Notes under the pieces: generated by a model
Database searches by the model: none
Told to the model about the DNA's origin: nothing
Seen by the model: only the letters and a program-made list of their open reading frames with translations
Shown here: piece after piece, positions 4,410 to 58,419 of the stretch
Position numbering within the stretch: position 1 is the first letter of the stretch
Layout of the letters: each line of letters starts with the position of its first letter
Assembly: GCA_018401705.1 (NCBI GenBank)
Contig: JAGYKL010000007.1
Location: forward strand, 1-64,000
Source: Bacteroidia bacterium
GTDB taxonomy: Bacteria > Bacteroidota > Bacteroidia > M30B66
DNA: 64,000 bases
Reading direction: 5' to 3'
Translations under genes and position numbers: made by a program

Positions 4410-7400
4410 TTATCTGCTTATTGTAAGTCTTGCAGAAGAAGAAATCTTCTCTCCGTTAAGAAGCACTTGGTAAACCCCTGTAGCTAAGTCAGAAACATCT
4501 AACTGCAGCATTCCTGTTGCATCTACTTTTGTGAAATTAACAGTTTTAACAAGTTTACCTGAACCGTCTAATAAGAAAACAGATACTTCTTTTTCTCTTT
4601 CTGGCAGATTCAATTTGATTGAAGCGCTAGCATTAGCTGGATTTGGATACATAGAAAAGACCTGACCTTCAGAGTCATTTATTCCTGTAGTTATGTCGCT
4701 CACAGTAATTTGCATAGTTTGAACATCCATACAAGTAACATTTGATGCAATAAAAGTTACGGTGTAAGTACCAGGCAAAGTGTAAATATGCGTTGGACTA
4801 ATTACTCCCGTTACAATTGAACCATCACCAAAATCCCAAGTAATATCACTTGCGCCCTGAACTTGGGCATTAAACTGAATAAAACCTTCATTTAGATTAA
4901 TAGTTTGTGCGCTCGAGCTTATTGTAGCTTGAACTGGAGCCCCGGAAGCAATTTCAACTGCCTGATTGATATGAGATCCAAATATGTTACTCATTGAGAC
5001 AAGGTATACACCTCCGTTTAATCCGCTAATTGTTTCATTTCCTGTTAAACCTAATCCTTCAGCAACTAAGGTTCCTTCAGAAGAAGTTACTGAATAAGAC
5101 CAAGAAGTTTCAGATGGGCTTGAAATAATTAGTTCGCCATCGTTTTGAATACAACTTTCTGTAGATGTAGCAAACGTAACCTCAGGCTTGAAATGTAATC
5201 TAAACCTGTTTTGGTCTGTTGCAGGATTGTACTGATATGTATACTCATTTTGTGAGCGCATATTTACAAAAGTTCCAGTCTTAGTATCTTCCAAAATAAT
5301 TTGAGAAGTATTAGATAGACCATCAATATGCTTAAGTGCTATTGTTTGAGTTCCAGCGGCAGAAGCCTCCAAACCTAAATGAACTACCCTATCCATATCC
5401 AATTCTGGCAATGCTTGAATTGCATAATCTTCGTTACCAATTTTTGAGTAGAATGCTAAATCTTCATTCCCTCTCAATTTCTTAGCATCATACTGATTGT
5501 CGGCAGCTTCAGTAGCGTCATCTTTGAAGGCGATTAATAATTCATTATAGTTTCCTGAAGCAGTTGTTACATTCATCCAAATTCTGTCAATTACTTGAGC
5601 ATCAAAGAAATCATCATTCTGAGTTCTTCTCATAGAATTGTTAAAAGTAACTGAGCTTGAAGAAGAAGCTTCAACAAAGAAACCTTGACCAGAAGCTATA
5701 AATCCATTGAATCCAGATCCGCTGTTTGGTCCAACAAAACCAATACCGTTCCAAACACCATAATCTGTTTGGTCGTAATCTGCACCAGAAGAGTTATCAT
5801 CATCCCAGAAATAAAGTGCACCTCCAACAAATTGAGGATTAGCAGCAACAAAATCACTCGCGCTAACAGCGCTAGGATAAGGATTTCCGATCAAGTTGAA
5901 ATTTGTAAACGTTGCAAGAGAAAGCGGACCGTAAACAACAGTGCCATTATTAGGCACGCCATTAAATATAGCAGTACCAGTACCTGTGGCGATGTATCCG
6001 CGTCCAGGGGTCATAATAGATCCAGGACTAACCCATCCATCCCTTAATCCTTCTACTGTGTTAGCAGAAGCTGATCCAGGATTGTATGCGTATCGATTTC
6101 CTCCTAGAACACCTAAACTTGATGATACTATTGGAGATGACCAATAATTGTAGCTTATACTAGAAGAAGTACCTGTTCTTCTGATTCTTGCGGTACCAAC
6201 AACAGAACCTCCAGCTCCAGGAGTTCCAACACCATGCATTAGAGATCCTCCATCCCCAATAATCAGAGAATTATTGGTATTAAGCACAGCACCAGTAAGG
6301 ACACTTACAACTCCGTTGAATGTTGTAGAACCATTAATTTGAGCAGTTGGTGAAGTAAATTCTACATTACCATCTCCATCTACTGTGGCAGACACTCCCG
6401 ACCAATTCCCATTTACAGTTATTTTATATCCTGTAGGAATCGTTACAACAGCACCAGAGTTAAGAACTATATTTCTAACAGAACCATTTCCAGGTGTTAA
6501 GAAATTAGGTTGATTTGATACAACAGGTACAGTAACATTGTCAGAGCCGCCAGGTATTAGGCTAGGATTCCAGTTTCCTGGATTATTCCAGTCGCTATTA
6601 ACTGCTCCTGTCCATGTGATACCTGCTGAGAATGGCTCGGCAAGTTGGAACTCTCCAAATGTAGTTAAAGATGTTGCTTCGGTAGAAGTTGCTGTTCTAA
6701 CACCCACAGATGCAGCATTCCAAGTTGAAGAACTATAACGAGCTACAGACAAATTGCTGGTGTTCACACTAACATCAAGATCAGATGCATTAAAATTGAA
6801 CTGAACAGATGCTGATGTAAAGCCTGCAACTCCGATATTTTGTATACTCCAATATCTGTTAACAGAGCTTGAAGGATCAATGCCTGATGTTGCAGCATTG
6901 GGATGATCTCCTGACAAAGTAAATGCTGTTATTGAACCAACATTGTTTGTTGTACCTGTAAAGAATATAGTTAAAGGAGCATAGTTAGAAGCATCGCCTA
7001 TCTCGAAACTTTTAGATGCCGTTGCAGAAGCAATGTTCTTTTGCAAATTACCATTTACATAACTATTTGCATTAGCTCCTATAACTGTAGCCCCGTTGAG
7101 TACATTCACTACGTTCGAACCTGTTTGAATTATTCCATCAACTAGGTTCAATTCAGCACTGACAAGAATTGAACTGTTTAGCAATTTAACACCAGCTCCG
7201 TTTAAACTTAATTTTCCGAATGAAGTTGCCCCTGTTATTGACTGAGCTCCACCTGTTAAACTAAATACTCCAGACCCAGTGTTCAATCCTGCAATTCCCG
7301 AATTATTCGTCAAATTACCTTTCAAAGAAATATTCCTGTTAGATATATTGTTGACATTTCCAGCGAGAATTGAGATGTTTCCGTTTATAACGATGTCTGT

Positions 7401-7445
7401 ATTAAACAAATTCTTATTACCAACTGCGCGGCACAACAAATGCAT
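4410..7445 (-). CDS. C-terminal part of giant T9SS-exported adhesin (interrupted gene)
   Basis: This 1011-codon frame is in the same reading frame as the larger frame upstream and is separated from it only by two adjacent stop codons (7452-7454 and 7449-7451). It should be read as the downstream part of one gene. It begins inside a beta-rich repeat module, contains a fifth module start (TWTGAVNSDWNNPGNWNP), a region of GNPYPS-type T9SS-cargo sequence, a PKD-like domain (WDFGDGS...PTHIYTLPGTYTVTF) and a C-terminal type A T9SS sorting domain starting at MYPNPANASASIKLNLPE and ending in ARLTISR. The product is expected at the cell surface or released. The ATG at 7445 is unlikely to be a natural start because no signal peptide or promoter precedes it. 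Confidence 0.82.
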   Translation of the reverse strand: MHLLCRAVGNKNLFNTDIVINGNISILAGNVNNISNRNISLKGNLTNNSGIAGLNTGSGVFSLTGGAQSITGATSFGKLSLNGAGVKLLNSSILVSAELNLVDGIIQTGSNVVNVLNGATVIGANANSYVNGNLQKNIASATASKSFEIGDASNYAPLTIFFTGTTNNVGSITAFTLSGDHPNAATSGIDPSSSVNRYWSIQNIGVAGFTSASVQFNFNASDLDVSVNTSNLSVARYSSSTWNAASVGVRTATSTEATSLTTFGEFQLAEPFSAGITWTGAVNSDWNNPGNWNPSLIPGGSDNVTVPVVSNQPNFLTPGNGSVRNIVLNSGAVVTIPTGYKITVNGNWSGVSATVDGDGNVEFTSPTAQINGSTTFNGVVSVLTGAVLNTNNSLIIGDGGSLMHGVGTPGAGGSVVGTARIRRTGTSSSISYNYWSSPIVSSSLGVLGGNRYAYNPGSASANTVEGLRDGWVSPGSIMTPGRGYIATGTGTAIFNGVPNNGTVVYGPLSLATFTNFNLIGNPYPSAVSASDFVAANPQFVGGALYFWDDDNSSGADYDQTDYGVWNGIGFVGPNSGSGFNGFIASGQGFFVEASSSSSVTFNNSMRRTQNDDFFDAQVIDRIWMNVTTASGNYNELLIAFKDDATEAADNQYDAKKLRGNEDLAFYSKIGNEDYAIQALPELDMDRVVHLGLEASAAGTQTIALKHIDGLSNTSQIILEDTKTGTFVNMRSQNEYTYQYNPATDQNRFRLHFKPEVTFATSTESCIQNDGELIISSPSETSWSYSVTSSEGTLVAEGLGLTGNETISGLNGGVYLVSMSNIFGSHINQAVEIASGAPVQATISSSAQTINLNEGFIQFNAQVQGASDITWDFGDGSIVTGVISPTHIYTLPGTYTVTFIASNVTCMDVQTMQITVSDITTGINDSEGQVFSMYPNPANASASIKLNLPEREKEVSVFLLDGSGKLVKTVNFTKVDATGMLQLDVSDLATGVYQVLLNGEKISSSARLTISR

Positions 7446-7451
7446 CCGTTA

Positions 7452-10400
7452 TTATATGTTCCTTGAGATGGAAGACCGGCTGTTGGAAACAGAGTTATAC
7501 TCAATTGTTCCCCGGCCTGCATTAACAAAGTTTGAATAATCACCGCCCGGGAATATGAATTGGTTAGACAAAGTCGGAGTCATTCTTATTGTACCAGTTC
7601 CAGTAACAGAGCCGAAATTATGGCCTAGTGTTCCATTCAAATTAAGAGTCCCTTCTACAATTGCAGTAGATGCTGATCTATTATCATTGGCAACATTGAT
7701 AGTATGTCCAGCTGCAATCACAACCGAATTAAATGCAGGTGCTGAAGAAGCTGCTGGGCCTGCATGCATTAGAATAGCATCTGTTGACCATGAATTAGGA
7801 TCACTCCAAGAACCTCCAAGTGTTGCATTTCTACTGTAGTAGACCAATAATTGGTCAAATTCAGACTGTTCACCAGCTGTGTAATCACCATTGAAATAAT
7901 TTACAGCTGCAAGAGTCATAGTGTTTGTTGCAGAATTTACGCTGGCAGGAATCCCAAATTGTGGCACCCAGATGTTACTAAAATATCTTCCGACTCTATA
8001 TTGAGTTTCATCACCATTAGTTGCATCAGTTTGCAAGTAATTATATGTATGAGTCACTGCTGTAGCTGCACTAAATCCTGTTGAGCTTGTATTCCAGTAA
8101 TAAGTAAGCTCCTTTGCTAAAGGATCTGTTGTAGCTGGATGCTTAACATTCACAGGCTTGATAGTCACTGATCCTGCTGTATTATTTGAAGTAACGTTTA
8201 TTCTCGCAGGAGTATATTTAAGTGTAACTCCAATTGGGAATGTAAAGTCGTGAGCAGTTGCAGGATACATTTTTCTTAATCCAGCATCACTAAGTACACC
8301 ATTCAAACGAATCATTGAAGCTTGATTGATAGTACCAGAAGTTGATGCATTAACTCCTAGAGTTAACAGGTTATTATTTATATAAAACGAACCAGCTTGG
8401 AAATTAAGATCACCATTTATCGTAGTAGCTGTTAATAAATCAACACCAGCGGAGTTACTTAGTCTCACACTGCCAAACACTCCTGATCCATTTCCTGAGA
8501 TTGTTTGATTTGAAGATCCATTAAAGACAAGATATCCCGGCGAAACACTTGTATGTGTTCCGTTATTTATAACATTGCCGGTTACTGATACAAAATTATC
8601 ACCTGCTGCAAGTGTACCATTGAGCAATGACATATTGCCGTTTATTCTCAAATTGGTATTAGCAGAAATAATATAAGACCCTCCAATAAATGTGTTATTG
8701 AAAACCAAATTTGCAAAATTTGTTAAGTTCCCAGTAACACCTGTAATTGTAGGATTCATTGAAGTACCTGCAAAGGTTGTAACCTGAGTTGCGTTCTGTG
8801 TTCTGAAGCCGCCTAAAGTTAAACTAGCTGTAGCATTTGGGTTTTCATTAATTAAACCTCCTCCAATATTAACATTCAGTCCATTAGTATTGAACACTGA
8901 TGAATTAAGAATGCTTAGGTTGTTTTTAATTGTAATCGGATTACCTTGAATTGTAGCTGTTTTACTAGTTATTGTACCGTCAACAGTGAAATCCCAAAAA
9001 CCAACATTAGAGTTAACTGCAAAATTTGAAGAGGCAGGTGGAGTACTTGACGTTCCAACTCTTACTTCTCCTCCAGAAACTGAAGAGCTAGAAGGGGCAA
9101 GGTATAAATCGCCGAAAATGCCGCTTGCTAGACCCGTGCGGTCTATTATAAGAAGCGAATTCCCTGACATATTAAATGAACTACCAGGGTTAAGCACCTC
9201 AAATTTTGCTCTGTTCAAATTGAACGAAGATGCAGCCTCTGCATTCTTACCTCTTACTAATACTGTGCTATTATCTGCTTGTGAATATGATAATGCACCT
9301 AATAATACACTTGTACTTCTTCTAATTTGACCATTTACATTCAGTATCCCATTTCCTGATACTGTTATCACTGGAACATTTGTAGCAGAATATTCGATGT
9401 CATTATGTGATGTATGTGCAACATTACCAACATTCAGTGTACCGTTAAGTACTTCAAGTTTACCTGCAAGAATTAAGTCAGCATCATTATCATCTACCAT
9501 GGCTGCATTTATAACAGCTCCAACATGATTCAGAGACAATGCTGTAGTTGCTGGAATAACGAAATCAGAAGCTGGCTGATTGGTTAATGTTAATGTGCCT
9601 GATTTAGACAATCTGAATGTACCATTAACCAATGATAGCCAAGAATCGCTAGGAGCAGATAGCGAACCAGCAACATCAACATTTAGAAGAATTGCCGAAG
9701 AAGTTCCTTTGTTAAGAATAACTTTAGCAAAGTTTGTAGAAGCTGCGCCGTTTGTTCCGGTAACTGACCTACTATTTTCACCAATAAAGGAAATTGTAGC
9801 AGAACTAGCCTGATTCATTTGAAGCGTTCCATTATTGGTTATATTTCCTAATAATGATATTTGGTGCTCTACAGAACCAGTATTTGCAACATCAAATCTT
9901 CCGGCATTTCCAATTACAATATTTCCATCTACATTAACTGCTTGAGTAGTAACAGAGCCTAATCTTAATGTTCCAGAAGTAATGTTAAGATTTCCTCTTA
10001 AATTCAGTGTACGTTCAGAAACATCAGAGAATAAGGCAATTCCTGATGCGTTTCCATTCACGGTAAGATCCTGATAAATCTCTAAATCACTATCAGCTAT
10101 TGTTACGGTAGCTGAAGAAGATGGATTTAAGGAAAGATTCTTATAAGTTCTAATCTCCATATTTGTGGGAGCTCCAGTAAAAGCTGGTGCTGTGAAAGAA
10201 GTACTTGTACTGTAGTATTCTGTTGTACCTCCATCAAGAGTGAAGAACAATCCAAAGTCACCTCCGGGGAATTCTGCGGTTGCAATAGCTGATGAAATCC
10301 TTAATCTTCCAGCTCCTCCTGCTGTTGCATATGGAAGTGCACCAAAGTTATTTCCTGTTGTAGCTCCAACATCTAATGTTGAACCAGAGTCAATAATCAA

Positions 10401-29554: not shown

Positions 29555-29560
29555 TAAAAA

Positions 29561-29933
29561 ACAGTCCGCCTTGTCGCGAGGTATTTCGGTACCGCGAGGA
29601 AAGTCCGGGCAACACAGAGTACCTTGCTTCCTAACGGGAAGGCAGCGAGCGGGCAACCAATCGTTGACAGACAGTGCCACAGAAAACAAACCACCTCAAT
29701 GTATTGGGGAAAGGGTGAAAACGCGGGGTAAGAGCCCACGACGCAGCTGGTGACAGTTGTGATGGTAAACCTCAGGGGTTGAAAGACCAAATAGGCTAAG
29801 TATAGAGCTACTCGCTCTCTATCTTCGGATTAACTTAGCGGGTAGGTCGCTAGAACCTGCGGGCGACTGCAGGTCCAGATAAATGACAAGGGTTCGCCTC
29901 ACCGCGGATACAGAACCCGGCTTATAGGACTGT
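29561..29933 (+). ncRNA. rnpB: RNase P RNA component, class A
   Basis: Catalytic RNA that trims tRNA 5' ends. Universal landmarks are present in order: GAGGAAAGTCCGGGC near the 5' end, GACAGACAGTGCCACAGAAA, the GTGAAAACGCGGGGTAAGAG block, and GATAAATGACAAGGG followed by ACAGAACCCGGCTTATAG at the 3' end. The ends were set by the P1 helix, ACAGTCC (29561-29567) pairing with GGACTGT (29927-29933). The length of 373 nt is typical. A run of T follows immediately, as expected for termination. Confidence 0.95.
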
Positions 29934-29967
29934 TTTTTTCTTCCTCTTATTTGAAAAATAAGAGGAA
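29932..29967 (+). terminator. T-run and hairpin after rnpB
   Basis: P1 is followed directly by a run of seven T (29933-29939). Next is a 12-bp perfect stem TTCCTCTTATTT (29941-29952) / AAATAAGAGGAA (29956-29967) with a 3-base loop. Either could end the rnpB transcript; the hairpin has no T-run of its own downstream. Confidence 0.5.
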
Positions 29968-30099: not shown

Positions 30100-31905
30100 A
30101 TGACAACTTTTTCAGAATTGGGGCTTCGTCCGGAGCTCCTTGAAGCAGTAACGAAGCTTGGCTTCACTGCTCCCACTCCAATCCAGGAGCAAACAATACC
30201 ACTACTCACCGAAAATATCACTGACCTGGTAGCATTAGCTCAAACAGGAACGGGTAAGACCGCTGCGTTTGGTTTACCTTTATTAAATATACTCGACGAA
30301 GAAAGAAAGACTCCACAAGCCTTGATTCTTTGTCCAACGCGTGAACTTTGCATGCAAATAAGCAGAGACCTTGAATCATACGCAGTAAACTTACCAATGG
30401 TAAAGCTAGTTGCTGTGTATGGTGGAGCTGCAATTTCAACGCAAATTTCAGCCATTAAAAGAGGTGTGCAAATCGTAGTGGCAACTCCAGGTCGACTTAA
30501 AGATCTTATCGAAAGAAAGGCTGTCCGCCTCGATGAAGTAGAAACAGTAATTCTCGATGAAGCAGATGAAATGCTGAACATGGGTTTCAGAGAAGACATC
30601 GACTTTATACTTTCAACTACTCCGGAAGAAAAGCAAACCTGGCTATTTTCGGCCACTATGCCTCCTGAAGTTGCTTCAATTTCTAAAAACTACATGGTTT
30701 CTCCTGTTGAGATAGCTGTGGGGAAAAAGAATGCAGGTGCAACCAACATCAGCCATATGTATTATATGGTTAATGCCGGCAACCGTTACAATGCATTAAA
30801 GCGTATTGCCGATTCTCACCCTGATATTTACGGTATCATCTTCTGCCGAACAAAAGTTGAAACCCAGGATATTGCCGAGAAACTTATTAAAGACGGTTAT
30901 AGTGCAGATTCTTTGCATGGCGATTTAAGTCAGGCTCAGCGTGATGCTGTAATGCGTAAGTTCAGAAACAAATCTCTTCAAATGCTTGTTGCAACTGATG
31001 TTGCGGCTCGTGGAATTGACGTAGATGACATTACACACGTAATTCACTACAATATTCCTGATGATATTGAAAGTTACACTCACCGAAGCGGTCGTACAGC
31101 CAGGGCTGGTAAGTCAGGAATTTCTTTGGCTATCATAACGCCTCGCGATTTGAATAAGATTCGTCAGGTTGAACACAGAATCGGAACTACATTCGTTCAC
31201 AAGCCGGTGCCTACTGGTATTGAAGTTTGCGAACAACAATTGCTTCACTTGGCTCAAAAAGCTCACGATGTAGCAGTGAATCCTGATATTGAGCAGTATT
31301 TGCCTTCTATTATTGAAAGTTTTGGGGATAAATCGAAGGAAGAGGTTATTAAGAGCTTCTTAAGTCTTGAGTTCAATCGTTTTCTTGATTATTATAAGAA
31401 TGCTCAAGATCTAAATGAAAACAAAGGCGCAAGCCGCGAAAGAGGTCGCGCCGATGGTGTTCCGATGACTCGCTATTTTGTGAGTGTTGGTGAGCTGGAT
31501 GGGGTTGATAAATCTGGAATGGTTCGTTTAATTTGTGACTCAACCGGAATTCCAAATGCTAAGATTGGTAAGATTGAATTACGTAGAAGCTTCTCATTCT
31601 TTGAAGTGCCTGTTCAATTTGAAAATATTGTAGAAACTCGTTTCGAGGAAGTTCTAGTAAATGACAGACCTGTTCGTCTTGAAAAAACTGCTGAAAGCTC
31701 TGGTGGCGGTGGCGGTGGATACCGTGGCGGAAGTTCTGGCGGCAGAGGCCGCTCGGGCGGTGGCTACCGTGGATCAAATGATTCGGGAGAAAAGCGTCCA
31801 TTCAGAAGTCGCGACAAAGAAAGAAGCGGCGGAAGCGGCGGTGGTGGTTACCGAGGTAAGTCTGGTGGAGGTGATAAGCCGGCATACAAGAAGAAGACTT
31901 GGTAA
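30100..31905 (+). CDS. deaD: DEAD-box ATP-dependent RNA helicase, DeaD/CsdA-like
   Basis: Unwinds structured RNA, typically in ribosome assembly and cold adaptation. All core motifs are present: the Q motif TPTPIQ (25-30), Walker A AQTGTGKT (47-54), PTREL, DEAD (153-156), SAT (184-186), ARGIDV and HRSGRTARAGKSG. A C-terminal DbpA-like RNA-binding domain (about 455-530, RYFVSVGELDGVDKSG) is followed by a Gly/Arg/Ser-rich tail (about 540-601, with GGGYRG repeats) that probably adds nonspecific RNA binding. 601 residues is normal for DeaD. The gene has its own promoter and no operon partner; a field of 7-bp repeats begins 3 bases after its stop. Confidence 0.93.
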   Translation: MTTFSELGLRPELLEAVTKLGFTAPTPIQEQTIPLLTENITDLVALAQTGTGKTAAFGLPLLNILDEERKTPQALILCPTRELCMQISRDLESYAVNLPMVKLVAVYGGAAISTQISAIKRGVQIVVATPGRLKDLIERKAVRLDEVETVILDEADEMLNMGFREDIDFILSTTPEEKQTWLFSATMPPEVASISKNYMVSPVEIAVGKKNAGATNISHMYYMVNAGNRYNALKRIADSHPDIYGIIFCRTKVETQDIAEKLIKDGYSADSLHGDLSQAQRDAVMRKFRNKSLQMLVATDVAARGIDVDDITHVIHYNIPDDIESYTHRSGRTARAGKSGISLAIITPRDLNKIRQVEHRIGTTFVHKPVPTGIEVCEQQLLHLAQKAHDVAVNPDIEQYLPSIIESFGDKSKEEVIKSFLSLEFNRFLDYYKNAQDLNENKGASRERGRADGVPMTRYFVSVGELDGVDKSGMVRLICDSTGIPNAKIGKIELRRSFSFFEVPVQFENIVETRFEEVLVNDRPVRLEKTAESSGGGGGGYRGGSSGGRGRSGGGYRGSNDSGEKRPFRSRDKERSGGSGGGGYRGKSGGGDKPAYKKKTW

Positions 31906-31908
31906 GGA

Positions 31909-32048
31909 CGATTGTCGATTTTCGATGAACGATTAGCGATAGTCGATTTACGAGGTGCGATAATCGATAGGCGATTTATGAGGTTCGATAAACGATTGGC
32001 GAAGTTCGATTGACGAGGTTCGATGTGCTAACGGCGATAATCGAGAAG
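31909..32048. repeat. 7-bp tandem array, CGATNNN, 20 units
   Basis: Twenty consecutive heptamers with exact 7-bp spacing and no indel. The first four bases are CGAT in 14 units and start CGA in most others, while the last three vary. Units 6-9 and 10-13 form a 28-bp higher-order repeat (31944-31971 and 31972-31999). The array begins 3 bases after the helicase stop codon. It is not open in a useful frame. Function unknown. Confidence 0.85.
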
Positions 32049-32181
32049 GATTTTGCTTGTAGCTGAGATTATGTAAAGCTCATCCCGGACTTTTCACAAA
32101 AAACTTATAATCAGGCTTCTATTGTCAGCTATTTGCATGACTTGATTTACTCTGCTTTTTGAAACTACTGTCTAGTTTAAT

Positions 32182-32196
32182 AAAGTCGGAGACTTT
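32182..32196. repeat. Small hairpin between two heptamer arrays
   Basis: AAAGTC (32182-32187), GGA, GACTTT (32191-32196), extended by flanking TTAA-like bases. It might be a weak terminator for the helicase transcript. Otherwise 32049-32220 holds nothing I recognise. Confidence 0.35.
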
Positions 32197-32220
32197 AATT
32201 TCTTATGCCCACAAGATGTT

Positions 32221-32297
32221 CGATGTACGATAGTCGATGTACGATGAACGATAAACGTGAGTCGTTGTACGTATGTCGTTGTACGTAAGTCGTTTTA
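32221..32297. repeat. 7-bp tandem array, CGATNNN drifting to CGTNNNN, 11 units
   Basis: Eleven heptamers in exact register: five start CGAT (with CGATGTA twice), then five start CGT (CGTTGTA twice), then CGTTTTA. It is separated from the first array by 172 bases and is not in phase with it. Confidence 0.8.
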
Positions 32298-32326
32298 CAC
32301 AGACAACGCTAATTCAACAAACCTAT

Positions 32327-32375
32327 ACTAAATCCTTAGTACTTGATACGAATTACGTAGTACTTAGTACTAATC
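32327..32375. repeat. 7-bp tandem array, ACNNNNN/TAGTACT type, 7 units
   Basis: Seven heptamers with exact 7-bp spacing (ACTAAAT, CCTTAGT, ACTTGAT, ACGAATT, ACGTAGT, ACTTAGT, ACTAATC), rich in the palindrome AGTACT. The last unit touches the stop codon of the convergent S8 protease gene. Confidence 0.65.
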
Positions 32376-34065
32376 ATTCCTGCTTTATAATCTGCCTGCT
32401 GTAAGTGCTTGTAGCAGTTTGAACACTTACCACATAATTGCCGGGCTTTAAGCGACGAACATTGCTTAACTGAAGCAAAGTGTTGGCAAAAGGATACACC
32501 TGAAACTGCTCTGAAGTGATTTTCTTACCGTTTGTTTTGAAAATGCTCACCGTAACTTGTTGCTCTCGTTCTGAAAAGAACTCAATATTTACCCCTTCAA
32601 TGAAAGGGTTAGGATAAACATTTACAATGCTGTCCTTCTTTGGCTTCTCGTCTTCCATTCGGCTAAGAATGCTATGTGCCCTCAAGAAATTAGGAATTCC
32701 AAAACCTAAGTAAGCATCGGGACTGTCGGCCTGACTTGCTGATTTTTCTATTGCCTTAAATACCTGCATCATTTTAGCATCAGGGTGAGCTTGCCATAAA
32801 CAAGCTACCATACCGGCAGTAACCGGAGACGAAAATGAAGTTCCGTTTGAACGACCAACATTGCCTGATGAATTAACCACCAAAGTCATTTGTCCCATGG
32901 CTGTTACATTGGGTTTGATTCTGCCATCATAACTTGGTCCACGGGAGCTGAATGAAGCATATTGCCCTTCCGAATCAACCGCTCCAATAGTTAAAACACT
33001 ATCGCCATCAGCAGGAGCACCAATGAATTTCCAGGAATCTGCACCGGAGTTTCCGGCGCTGTTTACAACAAGAATCCCTTTTGATGCAGCTAAATCAGCA
33101 CCTATTGTAATTCGTGTGGTATTTCCATCCAATTGAGAATACGTATGACTCGTTTCGGGATCATCAAAATTAGTATAACCCAATGATGAGTTAATAATAT
33201 CTGCACCAACTGAATCGGCAAACTCTGCTCCCCTAACCCAGTTGTCTTCCTCAATAATGAATTCAGAATCTGCATCTTCGGTGCGAAGCAACCAGTAATT
33301 AGCTTCCGGGGCTGTTCCAACAAAAATGCCCGGGTAATTCGAAGCCATGGTAGATAATACCGAAAGTCCGTGACTGTTATCTTCAAAAACAGATTCTCCT
33401 CCTTCAACAAAATCGCGGGTTCCTAATAATCGGCCTGAGTTCATCAAACTATCAAAAAACGGGAATTCGTTGGCTCTGTTAAAACCTGCATCAAGCACTG
33501 CAATTGTCATCCCCGCACCGCGGAAACCCATTTCATGCAGTTTATCGCCCTGCAGCATCTTAATTTGAACATCACCATCGCCATAATAAGCATCGGCACC
33601 GGTGCTTGCTTTCAGCTCAACTTTGGCTTGAGCCTGAGCTTGCTCATACATTTTCATTAAATCCTGCATGAATTCATCAGCAACAGTTTTAACCTTCACC
33701 CGAGCTACGCGACGGGTTTCTCGAACAAAATCAAGGCTTTGAATCTGATTCAACAAGCTTGAATCTTCCAATTCAATAGTAATTGCATTGAACCATTTGC
33801 TGCGATTTAAAATCCTTGCTCCTAAAGCTGCAACTTCATCAACATAAGCCGGATTCACGGGAATATCGTTTTCCTTAATTTCTATTCCTTGCTTCGTGCG
33901 CCTTTGAAGAGCTTTTTCGGACAAGAAATCCTGCGGAGCAGAAATGCTAAAAGGAGAGTTTGATTTGTCAGTAAACTGAATCCAATATTTTTTCGGAGCC
34001 ACATCCTGAGCAAAGCTCAGAAGCGGAAATAATGCCACTGAAAATGATAAAAGGAAATTCCTCAT
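32374..34065 (-). CDS. Secreted subtilisin-like S8 serine protease with T9SS sorting domain
   Basis: Extracellular endopeptidase. A signal peptide (residues 1-19) and a propeptide-like region (about 20-130, resembling peptidase inhibitor I9 domains) precede the catalytic domain. The triad is complete: D192 (VLDAGFN), H232 (SHGLSV) and S410 (GTSFSSP), with oxyanion residue N335/N339 in NSAGNS. The last 80 residues (VNVYPNPFIEGVNIEFFS ... GNYVVSVQT ... RQIIKQE) are a type A T9SS sorting domain. 563 residues is usual for such cargo. It is the last gene of a four-gene minus-strand cluster, 11 bases after the lipoprotein gene. Confidence 0.92.
   Translation of the reverse strand: MRNFLLSFSVALFPLLSFAQDVAPKKYWIQFTDKSNSPFSISAPQDFLSEKALQRRTKQGIEIKENDIPVNPAYVDEVAALGARILNRSKWFNAITIELEDSSLLNQIQSLDFVRETRRVARVKVKTVADEFMQDLMKMYEQAQAQAKVELKASTGADAYYGDGDVQIKMLQGDKLHEMGFRGAGMTIAVLDAGFNRANEFPFFDSLMNSGRLLGTRDFVEGGESVFEDNSHGLSVLSTMASNYPGIFVGTAPEANYWLLRTEDADSEFIIEEDNWVRGAEFADSVGADIINSSLGYTNFDDPETSHTYSQLDGNTTRITIGADLAASKGILVVNSAGNSGADSWKFIGAPADGDSVLTIGAVDSEGQYASFSSRGPSYDGRIKPNVTAMGQMTLVVNSSGNVGRSNGTSFSSPVTAGMVACLWQAHPDAKMMQVFKAIEKSASQADSPDAYLGFGIPNFLRAHSILSRMEDEKPKKDSIVNVYPNPFIEGVNIEFFSEREQQVTVSIFKTNGKKITSEQFQVYPFANTLLQLSNVRRLKPGNYVVSVQTATSTYSRQIIKQE

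Positions 34066-58346: not shown

Positions 58347-58419
<73 letters not shown>

Follow-up and report, generated by a model that had tools for sequence, protein, structure and literature searches.

Known Heptanucleotide Repeats and the Position of This Locus

Heptanucleotides are the commonest class of long simple sequence repeats (SSRs) in many bacteria, and slippage tied to the DNA polymerase has been proposed for them (Mrazek et al. 2007, as cited in PMC4679880 and PMC4692102). The preference of bacteria for 7-bp tandem repeats has been an open question for about two decades. Direct repeats of TAACTGA have been described in Beggiatoaceae, cyanobacteria, and five Bacteroidetes (MacGregor 2015, PMC4679880), while gaps of Gramella and Aequorivita contain other heptamer repeats, with close relatives having shorter gaps devoid of them (PMC4679880). 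GGGAATC/GGGANTN and GGGGA(C/T)T arrays are found in Xanthomonas and Nostoc (PMC4692102).

The locus compared here lies in a Bacteroidia bacterium, within the window, which is the whole stretch of 64,000 nucleotides that was analysed. Its features are as follows.

30100 to 31905, plus strand: gene of a DEAD-box RNA helicase (DEAD, Helicase_C, and DbpA domains), the upstream neighbour
31909 to 32048, plus strand: array 1, 20 heptamers of consensus CGA(T)NNN, with 18 distinct units
31944 to 31999, plus strand: two 28-bp (4-unit) higher-order copies within array 1, 24/28 identical
32049 to 32220, strand undefined: spacer between arrays 1 and 2
32221 to 32298, plus strand: array 2, 11 CGNNNNN units, CGATNNN changing to CGTNNNN
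32325 to 32373, plus strand: array 3, seven TAC-centred heptamers (GTACTTA, ATACGAA, TTACGTA, and others)
32374 to 34065, minus strand: gene of an S8 (subtilase) peptidase with a T9SS sorting tail, the convergent neighbour

With its 7-bp units in register, its intergenic position, and its sporadic occurrence between genomes, array 1 belongs to the broad bacterial class of heptanucleotide tandem repeats, a class that is already known and whose cause is unexplained. Dominance of period 7, intergenic location, and sporadic distribution are also features of the long SSRs of Mrazek et al., as these are described in the citing papers; those are (near-)perfect, whereas 18 of the 20 units of array 1 are distinct, which sets it apart from strict heptanucleotide long SSRs and makes it invisible to exact SSR searches. 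As in the Bacteroidetes gaps of MacGregor, the array-bearing gap is long here and shorter and repeat-free in relatives (PMC4679880). The TAACTGA repeats, in contrast, have one fixed sequence and, in Beggiatoaceae, are mostly situated just upstream of start codons (PMC4679880), while array 1 has a CGANNNN unit and lies between two stop codons. The arrays of Xanthomonas and Nostoc resemble it in that their heptamers are degenerate, some positions being fixed and others free, and in that they lie between genes and near ORFs, likewise with no gene-class preference and with length turnover between relatives; they are, however, G-quadruplex-forming and mostly of four units (PMC4692102), and array 1 has no GGG tract (0 GGG). 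DRT10/telomerase-like synthesis also yields short tandem repeats with a machinery-determined period, but DRT10 units are of 9 nt and are not chromosomal arrays (PMC12632851), and this genome is devoid of an RVT_1 protein, with no PF00078 match in it. Neither a stable hairpin nor a match to a known RNA family was found that would make array 1 a Rho-independent terminator or structured RNA. It is, in short, a member of the broad class that matches neither the strict SSRs nor the named families as these are defined by sequence or structure. New are the very pronounced degeneracy in which the CG anchor is preserved, the near-absence of C elsewhere on one strand, the family-specific word sets, and the siting at gene ends.

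Array 1 and the Gap between Helicase and Peptidase

The gap between the helicase and the S8 peptidase genes comprises 468 bp and holds three heptamer arrays, the second and third of which had been missed in the preliminary description. Array 1 begins 3 bp downstream of the helicase stop codon, and the peptidase stop codon is the end point of array 3. In the counted units of array 2, C is found only within CG. Positions 32049–32214 of the spacer are single copy, no copy being present elsewhere in the genome or in family members.

The exact 7-bp register that had been described for array 1 is borne out, with 20 consecutive heptamers from 31909 and 0 indels. CG occurs at 18 of the 20 steps, compared with at most 9 in 2000 dinucleotide-preserving shuffles of the array itself and at most 6 in shuffled windows; the periodicity is thus real and far above the chance background against which it was to be held. 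Of the CGAT core originally assigned, the CGA portion stands (18/20 units, the same as for CG), but CGAT itself is present in 14/20 units only. Columns 1–3 are C 19/20, G 19/20, and A 20/20, column 4 is T14 G4 A2, and the later columns are near-even in A, G, and T; the constant part of array 1 is, consequently, CGA. The terminal units are decayed (CTAACGG, CGAGAAG). The assumption that the remaining bases vary freely did not hold: positions 4–7 contain 1 C per 80 bases, with about 14 expected from an intergenic C content of 0.171 (P = 5e-6), and C is nearly missing from the plus strand except in CG. Replication-strand or gene-strand skew was considered as the source of this avoidance and rejected, there being no consistent relation to the local skew.

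The 28-bp higher-order repeat was confirmed. Copies 31944–31971 and 31972–31999 match at 24 of 28 bases, and TRF reports a period of 28 bp with 3.4 copies at 31908–32002, which shows a multi-unit (28-bp) duplication within array 1. Substitutions per position number 1, 1, and 0 at positions 1–3 versus 6, 13, 12, and 12 at positions 4–7. The sparing of positions 1–3 has P = 1.6e-5 against an even spread, a value rendered optimistic by shared unit ancestry, and the 28-bp copies taken by themselves are weak evidence for the sparing of CG(A). The earlier view that spacing and core have been kept rather than the full sequence is in agreement with these counts. In array 1 and in several other arrays of this genome, adjacent units resemble each other less than at random (P for an adjacency this high or higher: 0.987, 0.94, 0.997, and 0.987). 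A fold as single-stranded DNA was also considered and rejected (z -0.92).

Core positions that vary far less than the others would be expected of a protein-binding array, in which a putative protein would recognise CGA(T) at 7-bp intervals, with three sites in two helical turns, and selection would maintain the core and its spacing but leave the intervening bases to drift; that CG is constant in nearly all strong arrays of the genome points in the same direction. Such an array is nevertheless unlikely, given that C is avoided at the supposedly free positions, that other cores are found at the same period here and elsewhere, that gene orientation is not consistent, and that the array is missing from the same gap in four relatives. 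The two-turn helical phasing put forward in the preliminary description may still apply to a protein array, but the phasing of one binding protein does not explain the period, since arrays with entirely different cores, and arrays of unrelated phyla, also have period 7. A GATC-like methylation target, also suggested there, is at odds with the 0 GATC in array 1.

Heptamer Arrays across the Genome

The genome was sampled by stretches amounting to 1.14 of 3.74 Mb. In these 1.14 Mb, intergenic repeat segments with a score of at least 16 number 13, 11, 11, 11, and 10 at lags 7, 14, 21, 28, and 35, respectively, and 0–2 at all other lags. Strong arrays, usually abutting a stop or start codon, occur at about 12 per Mb in the same 1.14 Mb. 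CGATNNN repeated six times is found at four places in the genome and CG repeated ten times at 7 bp gives 75 overlapping matches, the reversed control being 0 in both cases; CG repeated ten times at 8 bp gives 0 matches in this genome. Array 1 is one of some tens of heptamer arrays in the genome. Most strong arrays are CG-centred, exceptions being GTAATAC/CTTAATA, CTACTAT, and CTTTTCAC, and within arrays there are adjoining blocks with different heptamer words. The 7-bp period holds irrespective of the sequence, and arrays often extend as far as the neighbouring codons. The longest array seen, of 468 bp (L079, 7856–8323), extends over most of a 111-amino acid ORF that is probably spurious.

On the C-poor strand of the CG arrays, 24 C stand against 113 G in 895 inner bases, a contrast inflated by the choice of strand per locus. 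Recurrent words are CGATGTA (8/13 loci), CGTTGTA (7/13), and CGTAATA (7/13); the number of unit types common to several loci, 15 versus 16 in a composition null, shows no excess.

With regard to location, proximity to gene ends was found, an array edge lying within 13 bp of a gene end in 10 of 13 array-bearing gaps (random placement in these gaps 5.1, P = 0.0004; 13 loci, array edges defined by score, genes called as longest ORFs only). A preference for convergent genes was not, since the 6 of 15 arrays concerned come from 4 gaps, which is too few. Orientation of the genes around the arrays follows no consistent pattern, some arrays being located between divergent genes or at start codons.

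The frequent start of arrays a few bases past a stop codon would be consistent with a transcript 3'-end element, such as a signal for Rho loading or for the mRNA end, the minus-strand RNA being C-rich and G-poor with TC every 7 nt, and C exceeds G on the peptidase strand. Judged by C-poor strand versus neighbouring genes, however, the co-directional transcript is C-rich at four loci and G-rich at three, and the arrays between divergent genes or at start codons do not conform to such a role. No terminator was found in the 468-bp gap, the RNA fold has z -1.57 and thus gives no signal, and the four syntenic relatives do without the array. The RNA 3' element of the preliminary description is not upheld by these data, and a transcript element of any such kind appears rather improbable.

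At L025, arrays at 7258–7468 and 10046–10236 are 2.8 kb apart and have about 95 bp of common flank (74% over 218 bp); this pair is a local duplication of array plus flank. In relatives (L223, L266, L268), three CG heptamer arrays have a flanking motif in common, GGAAACGGTAGCCC or ACGGGTAAAAACG, a hint of a dispersed element. Both observations, together with the frequent occurrence of two arrays around a spacer in one gap, would suit a dispersed mobile repeat (MITE-like element) with the heptamer arrays as its ends. As the spacer of the array 1 locus is single copy and most arrays are without a common flank, we regard this origin as doubtful at best.

The Same Gaps in Related Genomes

The relatives are represented by one genome per species, in draft form. 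Four family members, G004, G006, G008, and G005, possess the same convergent helicase/peptidase pair, separated by 85 bp with a terminator in G004 and by -4 bp (overlapping stops) in G006, as well as, by reading of the sequence, by about 118 bp in G008 and about 12 bp in G005. No heptamer array is present in the gap of any of the four. Because these syntenic gaps are short and array-free, the 468-bp gap with its three arrays is lineage-specific among the genomes seen. Similarly, a 173-bp array occupies the gap upstream of glyS here, and this gap is short and without array in G001 (same genus; 440 contigs, 73% complete), G003, and G008.

Turnover at one site was observed in G004 and G008, where one gene is 91.7% identical at the DNA level and ends in the same stop codon, followed within a few bases by different heptamer arrays.

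L277 and L278, just after position 2031, gene strand: differing post-stop arrays of G004 and G008

The array is of the CG type in G004 and consists of TAGTCTT/AAGTCTT heptamers in G008, with a lag-7 identity of 0.68 and 0.63, respectively. No array follows this gene in the present genome, in G001, or in G003. Heptamer arrays thus turn over at a single site between sister species.

The differing arrays that sister species carry at one site, words common to many loci and related genera, and a period independent of sequence could be accommodated by templated synthesis, in which an enzyme acting in trans would copy an RNA or DNA template (compare telomerase and DRT10) into heptamers at DNA ends or gene borders. 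No reverse transcriptase (PF00078) match is present in the genome (98.5% complete), though, DRT10 repeats are of 9 nt (PMC12632851), and near-perfect arrays in unrelated phyla fit slippage, which makes templated synthesis highly improbable.

Other Genomes and Phyla

Similar arrays do occur at other loci of the genome and in other Bacteroidota, in agreement with the preliminary description. G004, G006, and G007 have one short CG array each, those of G004 and G007 using words of this genome (CGTACAA, CGTATTA, CGAATTA, CGTATTG); heptamer words common to related genomes occur at unrelated sites. CG repeated ten times at 7 bp was detected in 34 of 395 genomes of the same taxonomic class, many carrying the GC control instead. 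Period 8 was detected in 4 of 149 genomes, mostly as perfect repeats, so that period 7 is dominant in the class and not exclusive. Long perfect 8-bp arrays were seen in G067, G120, and G128 (CGTTTTAC, CGGACTTT, CGCTGGAC).

In G291 (L225–L236), 240 kb contain 36 strong intergenic heptamer segments with many cores, corresponding by extrapolation to about 600 heptamer arrays per genome. Their units shift gradually along the array, adjacent units being more alike than random, opposite to the situation in array 1, and some period-8 arrays are also present. Heptamers of G291 are sometimes arranged as inverted pairs, for example GTCCGGC..CGGATGCCGGA.

CGATNNN repeated six times is found across genome_contigs in many phyla, among the matches listed. 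Again among the matches listed, 102 of the 120 arrays read are near-perfect with 1–2 distinct units; array 1 is an unusually degenerate case.

Proposed Origin of the Arrays

Array 1 would, with a probability of roughly 0.6, be young, lineage-specific intergenic heptanucleotide tandem DNA that has grown by whole-unit duplication. The excess at lag 7 and its multiples, the 28-bp step found by TRF, the 75 matches at 7 bp against 0 in the control and at 8 bp, the array-free syntenic gaps, including those upstream of glyS, the turnover in G004 and G008, and the similar, mostly near-perfect arrays of many phyla speak for it. We read array 1 as fast-turnover DNA rather than as a conserved binding site, methylation target, or RNA element, and it probably has no dedicated function for helicase or peptidase.

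An array would arise from heptamer words that the genome already contains, close by or at other loci, and would grow, by replication slippage or recombination, through duplication in whole-unit (7n-bp) steps, here mostly of 28 bp, that is, 4 units. The duplicated units would subsequently mutate, and those without the G+C-rich CG anchor would pair worse when misaligned and drop out of further duplication. Eventually, CG(A) would survive while the other positions drift; that the CG step acts as a pairing anchor in misaligned intermediates is a guess. Slippage by one unit predicts similar neighbouring units, and the neighbours in array 1 and several other arrays resemble each other less than at random; steps of 2–4 units rather than one are therefore suggested. 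Plain mutation, on the other hand, fails to explain the C avoidance and the sparing of positions 1–3, which counts against growth by duplication. It is conceivable, albeit improbable, that some bacteria possess a machinery working in fixed steps of 7 bp, which would write or extend degenerate heptamer arrays at the borders of genes, frequently directly behind stop codons, using genome-specific words with a common anchor dinucleotide; it would act on the same site in each of two sister species separately.

The arrays of this genome and of its relatives retain their period as their sequence changes, and at gene ends sister species show turnover of arrays; polymerase slippage, recombination, anchor-pairing, and binding-site models thereby become separable. 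Degenerate arrays that escape exact-repeat searches can fill a visible share of intergenic DNA.

The Rfam search of the window returned an RNase P RNA and a tRNA only. The bacterial RNase P RNA (class A) at 29558–29940 on the plus strand (269.7 bits) is located directly upstream of the helicase gene, and the tRNA is at 58347–58419 on the minus strand.
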